Origin: Frigoribacterium sp. PhB24
Lineage (GTDB): Bacteria; Actinomycetota; Actinomycetes; Actinomycetales; Microbacteriaceae
Assembly (NCBI RefSeq): GCF_003755185.1
Contig: NZ_RKIC01000014.1
Location: 62,001-126,000, forward strand
Direction of reading: 5' to 3'
DNA length: 64,000 nt
The notes under the pieces were generated by a model, which was given only the letters and a program-made list of their open reading frames with translations, searched no databases and was not told the origin of the DNA. Made by a program: the position numbers and the translations under genes. Positions 40,707 through 56,180 of the stretch are shown here, piece after piece. How positions within the stretch are numbered: position 1 is the stretch's first letter; every line of letters begins with the position of its first letter.

Positions 40707-40746
40707 GGAGGCGCGGGGCGCGAATCGAGGCCGACCCGCGCCTCCT
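40707..40746. repeat. Hairpin built from an inverted pair of the 11-bp dispersed motif
   Basis: GGAGGCGCGG (40707-40716) and CCGCGCCTCCT (40736-40746) form an inverted pair around about 20 bases. The hairpin is just downstream of the small acidic gene (stop at 40756, minus strand) and may be its terminator. The motif recurs through the following 15 kb. Confidence 0.6.
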
Positions 40747-40755
40747 CGGGTGTCG

Positions 40756-41046
40756 TCAGTAGGTGTGCTTGCCTTCGCCGTCGCCCTTGTAGTCGCCGAT
40801 CAGCTCGTCGACCTGGCCGGCCTCGGCCTGGCCGGGCCGGCGGGTGGGGCCGGCGTCGTCGGCCGGTCCGTCGTCGAGCGTGCGCGATCCGGTGTCGCCG
40901 TCGGGGTGGTTCTCGCTGGTGATCTCGACGGGACGGTCGTCCCGCTCGCCGACGGTGTGGTCGCCGTGCCCTTCGCCGCTGCTGTTGCCGCTGCGCTCGA
41001 GTTCGGTCTCGTCGGTGCCGTGCGGGTCGTCCGGGGTCTTCGTCAT
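40756..41046 (-). CDS. Small acidic, probably disordered protein
   Basis: This 96-aa protein is dominated by Asp, Glu, Gly, Thr and Ser (TKTPDDPHGTDETELERSGN, HGDHTVGERDDRPVEITSEN) and ends DELIGDYKGDGEGKHTY. It has no hydrophobic core and is probably intrinsically disordered. The ATG at 41046 has a full AGGAGG seven bases upstream. The 1008-base frame that contains it runs antisense through the ArsR gene and is not used. A second protein of similar character is at 51768-52085. No family is recognised. Confidence 0.65.
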   Translation of the reverse strand: MTKTPDDPHGTDETELERSGNSSGEGHGDHTVGERDDRPVEITSENHPDGDTGSRTLDDGPADDAGPTRRPGQAEAGQVDELIGDYKGDGEGKHTY

Positions 41047-41196
41047 CGGGTTCCTCCTGCGTGCCGGGCTGTCCGGCCGTCGTGGTTCGAGCTTGCGCCG
41101 CGGACCCGCCGTCCGCCCACGACACCCACCACACTCACGGCTCGACGGACCGACGCGCGGCCCGGCATGAGCCGGTCGCACGAGCCCGCGACTCCA

Positions 41197-41225
41197 CAAC
41201 ATCTCTTGCGCAACATCTCTTGCGC
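41197..41225. promoter_or_regulatory. ArsR operator with two 14-bp direct repeats over the promoter
   Basis: CAACATCTCTTGCG occurs twice in tandem (41197-41210 and 41211-41224). Inside it, GCGCAA-N6-TTGCGC (41208-41225) is a perfect inverted repeat. A -10 like TAGGGT follows at 41229-41234, seven bases before the ArsR start. Binding here would block the promoter, so the ArsR protein is probably autoregulated. Confidence 0.6.
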
Positions 41226-41241
41226 ATCTAGGGTCGACCGC

Positions 41242-41829
41242 ATGACCCCGCGCGAGACCTCCCGCAGCACCCTCACCGACGCCGCCTCGATGCGCGTGCT
41301 CGCCCACCCGACGCGATTGCGCCTCCTGGGGTTGCTGCGCGAACGCGGCGCGCAGACGGCCGCCCAGCTCGGCGATGCCGTCGACGAGGCCCCGGGCACG
41401 ATCAGCTACCACCTGTCGAAGCTCGCCTCGATCGACCTGATCGGCCCGGCCGAGCCGCGGACGGCCGACCGACGCGAGCGCTGGTGGCAGGCCACCGCGC
41501 AGCTCACCAGTTGGGAGCCCGCCGAACTGCTCGACGACCCCGACCGCCTCGCCGCGTCGTCCGCCCTGCAGAAGTCGATCGGCCAGGCCTACGCCGCGCG
41601 CTTCGGCGAGTACGTCGACGCGACGCCCACCCTGCCCCGCGAGTGGGTCGAGGCCGGTGCCAGCGGCGACCGCAGCCTCCGCCTCACCGCCACCGAGCTC
41701 GCCGCCCTGCGCGGCGACCTCGAGGCCGTCGTCGACCGCTGGCTCGACGCCAGCGCCGCTCACGACCCGGCGGCCGACGACGGCGCCGAGCCGGTCGCGC
41801 TGGTCTACCAGGCCTACCGCCGCCCCTGA
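41242..41829 (+). CDS. ArsR-family winged-helix regulator
   Basis: This 195-aa protein has an ArsR-type winged helix in the first 85 residues: SMRVLAHPTRLRLLGLLRER, then QTAAQLGDAVDEAPGTISYHLSKLASIDLIG. A C-terminal helical part of about 100 residues resembles regulators paired with MFS exporters rather than metal sensors; the usual metal-binding Cys motif is absent. The ATG at 41242 has a -10-like TAGGGT seven bases before it, so the mRNA may be leaderless. The MFS gene follows after eight bases. Confidence 0.88.
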   Translation: MTPRETSRSTLTDAASMRVLAHPTRLRLLGLLRERGAQTAAQLGDAVDEAPGTISYHLSKLASIDLIGPAEPRTADRRERWWQATAQLTSWEPAELLDDPDRLAASSALQKSIGQAYAARFGEYVDATPTLPREWVEAGASGDRSLRLTATELAALRGDLEAVVDRWLDASAAHDPAADDGAEPVALVYQAYRRP

Positions 41830-53966: not shown

Positions 53967-53993
53967 CCCCGGCTCGGCCCTGGCCGACGCGAC

Positions 53994-54020
53994 GACCGCC
54001 GCCCCCTCGGGGCGGCGGTC
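53994..54020. terminator. Hairpin terminator after the small pair
   Basis: GACCGCCGCCCC (53994-54005) pairs with GGGGCGGCGGTC (54009-54020) around CTC: 12 perfect pairs with a tight loop, followed by TCTGCATGT. It ends the plus-strand unit. Confidence 0.8.
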
Positions 54021-54040
54021 TCTGCATGTCGTCAGCCGGC

Positions 54041-54087
54041 GCAGGAGGCGCGGTGCCGGTCCCGAGGACCCGCACCGCGCCTCCTGC
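54041..54087. repeat. Hairpin made of an inverted pair of the dispersed motif
   Basis: GCAGGAGGCGCGGTGC (54041-54056) and its perfect complement GCACCGCGCCTCCTGC (54072-54087) flank 15 bases. Each arm contains the 11-bp motif AGGAGGCGCGG. It lies between convergent genes and probably terminates glgX. A third motif copy overlaps the glgX stop at 54107-54117. Confidence 0.85.
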
Positions 54088-54104
54088 GCTCGCGTCGTCG
54101 CCGA

Positions 54105-56180
54105 CTAGGAGGCGCGGCTCCGCAGCAGCGTGAAGCTCGCGTCGCGCACGAGCAGCGTCGTGACGGCGCCCTCGACCTGCTGGCCGGGGTCGCTCGACGA
54201 GGCGAGCTCCCACTCGCCGTGGGGCGCGTCGGGCACGTTGAACTCGACGACCGACGTCGAGCCGTTGACGAGGTAGGCGAACGCGTCGGCGTCCTTGTGC
54301 GTCAGGACGAAGGTGATCGCCTTGTTCTCGCCCTGCTGCCAGTCGCCGCTCGAGAACGAGTGGTCGTCGGCACGGCGCACCTGCACGTGGTCGTCGCTCT
54401 CGACCTCGGGGGCGTAACGGAACCAGTCGGGGCGCAGGGCCGGGTTCTCACGACGCAGCGTGATCAGCTCGGTCGTGAAGGCGAGCAGGTCGCGGTCGGC
54501 GCGCTCCCAGTCGAACCACGAGATCTCGCTGTCCTGGCAGTAGGCGTTGTTGTTGCCGCCCTGGCTGCGGGCGATCTCGTCACCACCGAGGATCATCGGC
54601 ACGCCGGCGCTGAGCAGCAACGTGCCGAGGAAGTTCCGGCGCTGACGGTCGCGGTACTCGTTGACCGCGGGGTCGTCGGTCGGGCCCTCGGCGCCGCCGT
54701 TGAAGGACTTGTTGTCGCTCTCGCCGTCCTGGCTGTCCTCGCCGTTCTCCTCGTTGTGCTTCTCGGCGTAGCTCGTCAGGTCGGCGAGGGTGAAGCCGTC
54801 GTGAGCGGTGACGAAGTTGACGCTCGACAGGGGCGAGCGACGGTCTGCCTCGTAGACGTCGGGGCTGCCGAGCACGCGGTCGGAGAAGGTCGAGAGCACT
54901 CCGGGCTCGCCGTTCCAGAACTCGCGGACGTCGTCGCGGAACTTGCCGTTCCACTCGGACCAGTCGGCCGGGAAGCCGCCGACCTGGTAGCCGGCGGTGT
55001 CCCACGGCTCGGCGATCATCTTCACGCTCTGCAACACGGGGTCCTGGTGGATCAGCGTGAGGAACGCGCTGTGCTCGCTCGCCTCGCCGCCCTGACGCGT
55101 GAGCGTCGTGGCCAGGTCGAAGCGGAAGCCGTCGACGTGCATCTCGGTGACCCAGTAGCGCAGGCTGTCCATGATCAGGGCGAGGGCCGCGGGGTGGCTG
55201 ACGTTCAGGCTGTTGCCCGTGCCGGTCGTGTCGAAGTAGTTGCCCTCGTCGCCCTCGACCAGGCGGTAGTAGGCGGCGTTGTCGATGCCCTTGAACGAGA
55301 TGGTCGGGCCCATGTGGTTGCCCTCGGCCGTGTGGTTGTAGACGACGTCCATCCACACCTCGAGACCGGCGGCGTGCAGGTCCTTGACCATCTGCTTGAA
55401 CTCGGCGACCTGGCCGCCCTTCGTGCCCGCGGCCTTCGACGCGTACTCGTCGTGGGGGGCGAAGAAGCCGATCGAGTTGTAGCCCCAGTAGTTGCGCAGG
55501 CCCTTCTCCTCGAGGTGGCTGTCCTGCACGAACTGGTGCGTCGGCAGCAGTTCGACGGCCGTGACGCCGAGGTCGGTGAAGTGCTTGATGGCGGCCGGGT
55601 GGCCCATGCCGGCGTACGTGCCACGGATGTCCTCGGGCACGTCCGGGTGAGTCTGCGTGAAGCCCTTGACGTGCACCTCGTAGACGACGGTGTCCTCCAT
55701 GGCCGTGAGCGGGCGCTGGTCGTCACCCCAGTCGAAGTCGCGGTCGGCGATGACGTTGCGGGGCATGGCCGCGGCCGAGTCCGTGTCGTCGCGCTGCTCG
55801 GGCTCGTCCATGTCGTGGCCGAAGACGGCCTGACCCCAGTCGAACGTGCCGTCGAGGGCCGTGGCGTAGGGGTCGAGCAACAGCTTGTGCTCGTTGTGAC
55901 GGAGGCCGTTCGCCGGGTCCCAGGGGCCTGCGACCCGCAGGCCGTAGCGGGAGCCGACCCGCGCCTCCTCGATGACGGAGTGGAAGACGTGGCCGGTGCG
56001 GTTCGTCAGCTCGAATCGGCGCTCGGTGCCGCCGCCGGTCTCGTCGGCCTCGTCGGCCTCGTCGTCGAACAGGCAGAACCAGACGTGGTCGGCGGTCTCG
56101 GAGTACACCGCGACGTGGGCGCCGCCGCCGGGCAGGGGCGTGACGCCGAGGGGGTAGGGCAGGGAACGGGAGTCGGTCAT
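54105..56180 (-). CDS. glgX: Glycogen debranching enzyme GlgX
   Basis: This 691-aa GH13 enzyme hydrolyses alpha-1,6 branches of glycogen trimmed by phosphorylase. An N-terminal CBM48 domain (YPLGVTPLPGGGAHVAVYSE) precedes the barrel, with regions VWMDVVYNHTAEGN, VDGFRFDLATTLTR (nucleophile Asp), KMIAEPWDTAGY (acid Glu) and NFVTAHDGFTLADL (stabilising Asp). A C-terminal beta domain follows and ends LLRSRAS, where the dispersed motif overlaps the codons. The ATG at 56180 was chosen. An acidic insertion (DDEADEADETGGG) is seen near residue 40. The upstream region holds the C-rich tract at 56246-56307. Confidence 0.94.
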   Translation of the reverse strand: MTDSRSLPYPLGVTPLPGGGAHVAVYSETADHVWFCLFDDEADEADETGGGTERRFELTNRTGHVFHSVIEEARVGSRYGLRVAGPWDPANGLRHNEHKLLLDPYATALDGTFDWGQAVFGHDMDEPEQRDDTDSAAAMPRNVIADRDFDWGDDQRPLTAMEDTVVYEVHVKGFTQTHPDVPEDIRGTYAGMGHPAAIKHFTDLGVTAVELLPTHQFVQDSHLEEKGLRNYWGYNSIGFFAPHDEYASKAAGTKGGQVAEFKQMVKDLHAAGLEVWMDVVYNHTAEGNHMGPTISFKGIDNAAYYRLVEGDEGNYFDTTGTGNSLNVSHPAALALIMDSLRYWVTEMHVDGFRFDLATTLTRQGGEASEHSAFLTLIHQDPVLQSVKMIAEPWDTAGYQVGGFPADWSEWNGKFRDDVREFWNGEPGVLSTFSDRVLGSPDVYEADRRSPLSSVNFVTAHDGFTLADLTSYAEKHNEENGEDSQDGESDNKSFNGGAEGPTDDPAVNEYRDRQRRNFLGTLLLSAGVPMILGGDEIARSQGGNNNAYCQDSEISWFDWERADRDLLAFTTELITLRRENPALRPDWFRYAPEVESDDHVQVRRADDHSFSSGDWQQGENKAITFVLTHKDADAFAYLVNGSTSVVEFNVPDAPHGEWELASSSDPGQQVEGAVTTLLVRDASFTLLRSRAS

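Follow-up and report, generated by a model that had tools for sequence, protein, structure and literature searches.

Copies of the word in the window

The DNA considered here is a 64-kb window of the actinobacterium Frigoribacterium sp. PhB24 (contig C6:62001-126000, NZ_RKIC01000014.1, of the 3,457,365-bp genome G000), in which an 11-nucleotide word, AGGAGGCGCGG, recurs on both strands, within genes and between them. Fourteen exact copies were found. Matches with no more than one mismatch number 29, including 15 one-mismatch forms, against 6.15 +/- 2.24 in 100 dinucleotide shuffles, none of which reached 29. An earlier note had described eleven exact copies spanning 15 kb, four in one orientation and seven in the other. 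All eleven were recovered at their positions, 4 on the + and 7 on the - strand, but the span is merely where copies had been noticed, and the word occurs genome-wide. Exact copies at 10119 (+), 13289 (-) and 42575 (-) had been overlooked, and the first two contradict the claim that there are none before 40.6 kb. Instead of the supposed absence, the left part of the window shows a depletion: the 40.6 kb to the left of a tRNA-Arg contain 2 copies where the genome mean predicts 12.1 (Poisson P 0.0005, post hoc), and 12 lie in the 23.3 kb to its right (P 0.05).

The two leftmost copies fall within a glycosyl hydrolase family 3 gene (10119..10129, +) and within a called gene at 13103-15106 (13289..13299, -). 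Adjoining the tRNA-Arg, the near-copy GGGAGGCGCGG (40706..40716, +) and an exact copy (40736..40746, -) make up the left and right arms of a hairpin. The called gene at 41838-43226 holds one exact copy close to its start (41860..41870, +) and another in its interior (42575..42585, -). A DUF429 gene carries a copy that is kept in both of the relatives compared (45965..45975, +) and one at its end that is kept in one of the two (46320..46330, -); here the Arg-Ala-Ser-stop ending that had been claimed can be read at 46320-46332. The intergenic copy at 46372..46382 (-) and the copy in a metallophosphoesterase gene at 49244..49254 (-) are each kept in both relatives, and the copy at the end of the latter gene (49910..49920, -) in neither. 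Other near-copies are AGGAGGCGCGC at 44575..44585 (-) and 47828..47838 (+), and CGGAGGCGCGG at 51184..51194 (+); this last had been placed correctly, whereas the positions proposed for the remaining three (40707, 44577 and 47829) shift to 40706, 44575 and 47828.

Further right, downstream of an alpha-amylase-type gene (54105-56180), exact copies at 54043 (+) and 54075 (-) form an inverted pair in a terminator-like hairpin between convergent genes (54036..54092). The same gene bears a copy at its 3' end (54107..54117, +) and one inside it (55959..55969, -), each kept in both relatives compared. Hairpins had been predicted at 40707-40746 and 54041-54087, and on the + strand both fold better than shuffled sequence: for 40701-40751 the z score is -3.6, equalled by 2 of 200 shuffles, and for 54036-54092 the energy is -54.6 kcal/mol (z -10.3), equalled by none of 200.

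Genes for a phage-type integrase, an OLD-family AAA/TOPRIM nuclease and a UvrD-helicase (36151-40330) adjoin the tRNA-Arg (40594-40667) in a low-GC stretch, which is likely an integrated island. We take the nuclease and helicase to be a Gabija-like defence pair. When the window was searched for a direct repeat of the 3' part of the tRNA-Arg, a possible att site, the sole match was the tRNA itself.

Abundance in the genome and restriction to Frigoribacterium

Across the whole genome AGGAGGCGCGG occurs in 1033 exact copies (525 forward, 508 reverse), and the same word read backwards, used as a control, in 4. A 464-kb sample, composed of 20 stretches of 20 kb and the window, contains 147 copies, where Markov models of orders 0-4 expect 0.8-1.7; the order-2 expectation of 0.8 is exceeded 179-fold, and among 11-mers seen at least 20 times in the sample AGGAGGCGCGG scores highest. 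Models of orders 6-8 expect 21, 67 and 120 copies, figures nearer to the observed count because such models already hold most of the word.

All 16 Frigoribacterium genomes searched contain between 383 and 1239 copies. In a sample of 299 genomes from the family, the 7 Frigoribacterium have 383-1033 copies and the other 292 at most 78; in a sample of 296 genomes from the phylum, the 295 other than G000 itself (1033 copies) have at most 54. The earlier note had proposed a count in the genome and its relatives against a Markov model; the 11-mer lies far above expectation and is rare outside the genus. The name Frigoribacterium for the genus is based on the best 80 of 584 loci found for one gene of the window: protein identity is 91-97% in five, all from named Frigoribacterium strains, and does not exceed 75% in the remaining 75. 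The word is a genome-wide and genus-wide feature, both real and strong.

With a genome of about 71% GC and a GC-rich word, an origin in base composition, codon usage or chance has to be considered. The Markov expectations and the comparison genomes of family and phylum, in which the excess is lacking, refute it, and the word is densest outside genes; we give this explanation practically no credence. Runs of nine C or nine G, counted with overlaps, were also frequent in the 464-kb sample (50 vs 5.6 expected, about nine-fold), and one long C/G run at a contig start (L014:1-80) is possibly assembly-related.

Placement relative to genes and to other copies

Genes were delimited with a codon-usage gene caller, without annotation. 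By this division the density of AGGAGGCGCGG in the 464-kb sample is 0.94 per kb between genes and 0.20 per kb within them (71 and 76 of the 147 copies, respectively), and a second gene call over 501 kb gave 74 intergenic and 79 genic copies of 153. Intergenic density is highest between convergent genes: 19 copies lie in 7.8 kb of convergent gaps, compared with 34 in 28.0 kb of co-directional and 13 in 16.2 kb of divergent gaps, and 5 are at edges. None of 36 same-strand genic copies is in the frame that reads AGG AGG. Genic copies on the opposite strand lean towards gene termini (KS P 0.01).

Most copies are single, but 13 of the 147 start an adjacent pair at a distance of 11-60 bp. These pairs are chiefly inverted (+- 8, -+ 4, same-strand 1), where about 0.6 is expected for each of the four types, and of the 192 gaps between neighbouring copies on contig C1, 18 do not exceed 60 bp, where 2.8 would be expected. 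G000 and a second Frigoribacterium genome, G302, both have frequent inverted pairs close to gene ends.

Hairpin pairs between genes are what would be seen if the word had arisen as the stem of transcription terminators or as a self-copying element similar to repetitive extragenic palindromes (REP), and such an origin is very improbable given the remaining copies, which are mostly single and in 76 of 147 cases genic. A longer repeat was sought in the flanks of 145 copies, and the best 60-bp match was 0.683, compared with 0.550 for random stretches; at no copy do the 60-bp flanks exceed 0.70 identity. The flank and genic counts largely refute this origin. REP and other extragenic palindromes have a repeated unit of 20-40 bp and are extragenic, as characterized in the available part of one account (PMC3733652), and AGGAGGCGCGG, with its genic copies and non-repetitive flanks, does not belong to that class.

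Strand balance

Copies are evenly distributed between the strands. Along the first 777 kb of contig C1, where 100 copies are forward and 93 reverse, the balance does not drift. Heterogeneity of strand among stretches was tested with AGGAGGCGCGG in G000 and G302, with two words of its own in G298 and with AGGAGGCG in the other five Frigoribacterium genomes; none was seen in any genome, P ranging from 0.40 to 0.95 in the eight Frigoribacterium genomes, and the smallest value overall was 0.087, in a genome of another genus (G055). In G000, 73 of 147 copies lie on the majority coding strand, as do 40 of 89 in G302; no association was seen between copy orientation and GC skew (P 0.32 and 0.65).

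Chi and KOPS are short over-represented words with a strand bias tied to replication, Chi sites being 5-8 nt long, and the earlier note had raised a chromosome-wide signal of either kind. The strand balance over 777 kb, among stretches and relative to GC skew, assessed without a located origin, disfavours both. KOPS would show a strong skew towards the terminus, and no such skew was seen. A Chi-like recombination hotspot would be read by an AdnAB-type nuclease pair, and two adjacent PDDEXK proteins encoded on contig C3 are presumably of the AdnAB type; the word is, moreover, G-rich, over-represented and conserved. We nevertheless regard such a hotspot as improbable: no replication-strand bias was seen over the 777 kb, nor any heterogeneity among the stretches of eight Frigoribacterium genomes (G302, G298 and six more, G000 included), an 11-nt word is longer than a Chi site, and the inverted pairs would be left unexplained.

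Conservation of the word and its dialects

Twenty-one sites of G000 could be aligned with relatives, as many as six in the L012 region and two in the window region. On average 0.722 of the relatives retain the exact word at these sites, compared with 0.336 +/- 0.083 for 11-mers matched by context, and none of 20,000 control draws reached 0.722. A count in which loci were not merged found the word kept in 59 of 83 comparisons, with controls at 0.41 in genes and 0.23 between them. By position in the word, 79 comparisons gave 13 changes at position 0, 7 each at positions 7 and 9, and 6 at position 10. When the window region was aligned across six genomes, an alignment that is unreliable in intergenic DNA, one site was present in all six, one in five and most in one or two. 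The density of AGGAGGCGCGG drops in low-GC stretches (rho 0.61 and 0.77 with GC). An insertion in Frigoribacterium sp. Leaf263 (L072, alignment columns ~15274-15700) contains several GCAGGAGTTGCCG-like copies in both orientations, perhaps another repeat family.

The form of the word varies among species, and its clade dialects are congruent with phylogeny in a tree of 16 genomes built from one 2.1-kb region. A branch with support of 100/100 parts the ten genomes in which copies exceed 850 from the six others. In the sub-clade of G110, G167, G218 and G260, just 10-16% of GGAGGCG occurrences are followed 3' by CGG, compared with 41% in G000, 37% in G302 and 36% in G035. The first A is less strictly kept in G298 (24% vs 49-50% in G302 and G000), where GGAGTCGCGG has 373 copies, against 16-39 in the other 15 genomes. 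Three copies of GGAGTCGCGG at G298:C1:325680-325761 are spaced exactly 36 bp apart.

Sharp core specificity, conservation resembling that under purifying selection and restriction to one genus would also fit a site selected on the chromosome for a genus-specific DNA-binding protein, for example a chromosome-organising one, or for an epigenetic enzyme, with no relation to DNA uptake. We consider this unlikely, if less so than a Chi-like role. About half of the copies are genic (76 of 147), neither inverted pairs nor a preference for convergent gaps would be anticipated from it, and a change of dialect at hundreds of sites between species would be hard to bring about without some process by which the new form spreads.

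Pilus and competence genes

ComEC is encoded in all 16 Frigoribacterium genomes, and in G000 a gene for a ComEA-type protein adjoins it. A type IVa pilus operon (G000:C4, L134:6653-19645) lies directly behind rpoB-rpoC-like genes, whose identity was read from the sequence and not by search. Its first part encodes PilB-, PilT- and PilC-type proteins, the major pilin and a PilV-like protein (match below cut-off); next come a protein bearing a prepilin motif, a large one that gave no match, the prepilin peptidase, PilM, another protein without a match and PilO. Matches passing the cut-off are those to PilT, PilM, the ComEC N-terminal domain and the ComEA helix-hairpin-helix, and several NCBIfam equivalog matches, including PilB, ComEC/Rec2 and comEA, are below it. 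Besides this operon there is one TadA-like ATPase match in Frigoribacterium. One copy of the word (L134:11591) is located between the pilC-type and major pilin genes. PilM was found in all 7 Frigoribacterium of the family sample and, above cut-off, in 144 of its 299 genomes.

A candidate DNA uptake signal

DNA uptake sequences were the analogy first drawn in the earlier note, and the genomic features support it well, the function in uptake being our extrapolation from them. The over-representation, strand balance, inverted pairs, clade variants and the presence of pilus and ComEA/ComEC genes together argue for it. By this analogy AGGAGGCGCGG is probably, though by no means certainly, a DNA uptake signal in a form particular to Frigoribacterium, convergent with the DNA uptake sequence (DUS) of Neisseria and the uptake signal sequence (USS) of Haemophilus. 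A DNA-binding minor pilin of the chromosomal type IVa pilus would recognise the word on either strand of duplex DNA, so biasing uptake, and retraction by PilT would bring word-bearing DNA to ComEA and ComEC. Homologous recombination would then spread alleles that carry the word, and copies would build up in shared, often-recombining DNA, settling where coding permits and so chiefly between genes. Intergenic inverted pairs may double as transcription terminators.

Uptake-sequence systems have been described in two Gram-negative families, the Neisseriaceae and Pasteurellaceae, as far as the consulted portions of two sources go (PMC3630211, PMC12616744). The Neisseriaceae, as portrayed in the part of the study available, have eight DUS dialects that share a core and mirror the phylogeny, as well as inverted pairs at terminators (PMC3630211). 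The Frigoribacterium word resembles these in being a 10-12-bp word present in about a thousand copies or more, in genes and between them, in genomes with a type IV pilus and Com genes, and again in its inverted pairs at putative terminators and its clade dialects with a common core that track phylogeny (PMC3630211, same portion). It differs from them in sequence, in its monoderm Actinomycetota host and in an intergenic density about fivefold the genic one, and its receptor and uptake bias are putative. With the USS, as presented in the accessible sections of the sources, it shares genome-wide over-representation of a short word and sub-clade variants (PMC2346458, PMC12616744). Published Pasteurellaceae uptake sequences lean to gene termini and prefer one orientation in reading frames, according to the same partial text (PMC2346458); in Frigoribacterium the lean to termini is seen only for opposite-strand copies and the orientation preference is absent, the word differs in sequence, and the receptor and physiology are putative. 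The consensus of neither the neisserial DUS (GCCGTCTGAA type, CTG core) nor the Pasteurellacean USS (ACAAGCGGT type), as given in the available excerpts, is shared by AGGAGGCGCGG.

Within the Actinomycetota, Micrococcus luteus is transformed by means of a Flp/Tad pilus, and the available part of that paper mentions no uptake sequence (PMC4322843). It is likewise an actinobacterium with ComEA and ComEC, as that excerpt has it, but uses Tad pili where Frigoribacterium has a type IVa pilus operon (PMC4322843). A literature search covering titles and abstract openings, with subscription journals mostly outside it, found no uptake sequence in Actinomycetota, no uptake self-tag in Gram-positive bacteria and no report of AGGAGGCGCGG; the seven papers in which the string AGGAGGCGCGG occurs were unrelated by title.

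Several observations weigh against an uptake signal. Genic copies have no preferred orientation (36 same-strand vs 40 opposite), unlike uptake sequences as published in the portions seen, and same-strand genic copies show no position bias within the gene (KS P 0.95). Single-mismatch forms show clear enrichment in G000 and G302 at positions 0, 9 and 10 alone, which is not the pattern that stepwise molecular drive might leave; in G298 they are additionally enriched for T at position 5. Inverted pairs are not enriched in G298, with its different dialect (+- 2, -+ 2, same-strand 6), and the strand total of AGGAGGCG in G218 is uneven (16 vs 32). Depletion in acquired DNA was judged only indirectly, from GC content and one window. 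Finally, of the 292 family genomes from other genera, all with 78 copies or fewer, 137 have PilM above cut-off, and the pilus alone is therefore no predictor of the word.

Over-represented words in other Microbacteriaceae

Over-represented words of their own were also found in six PilM-bearing genomes from other genera: G087 has GCAGGAGC/GCAGGATC, G055 has GGAGGCG and the remaining four have GGATGCCG or GGATGCGC. In G063, G087, G118, G127 and G084 (L204-L223) these were GGATGC types and GCAGGAGC/GCAGGATC. For the words of the six genomes, no strand heterogeneity and no enrichment of adjacent pairs beyond expectation was seen, and an intergenic preference was not consistent. GGATGCSS is over-represented in many Microbacteriaceae genera, although its ratios may run high because the control word contains TAG. 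Its excess had no association with PilM among 84 genera other than Frigoribacterium, each represented by one genome (median ratio 6.29 in the 44 with PilM and 5.04 in the 40 without, among which G073 has a match below cut-off; Mann-Whitney P 0.10). It occurs at 12-19x its reversed control in G054, G017, G106 and G057 (g54, g18, g85 and g57), which have no listed PilM match. No such word was found in the one 22-kb Curtobacterium locus examined.

The family-wide GGATGC-type words could be a different phenomenon from the Frigoribacterium word. That all are uptake-signal dialects of one system in the Microbacteriaceae, with the GGATGC type widespread, GGAGGCG in g55, GCAGGAKC in g5 (one sampled genome each) and AGGAGGCGCGG with its sub-dialects in Frigoribacterium, is doubtful. 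If true, this would be the first Gram-positive uptake-sequence system, with dialects switching at the levels of genus and species.

Implications

Should AGGAGGCGCGG be an uptake signal, Frigoribacterium would have a third, independent uptake-tag system, in a monoderm actinobacterium. It would follow that the tagging of DNA as self has a repeated origin in evolution and that an outer membrane is no prerequisite for it. The species-level change of dialect in G298 would then offer a case for catching the co-evolution of receptor and word, and natural transformation of the Microbacteriaceae would become directly testable.

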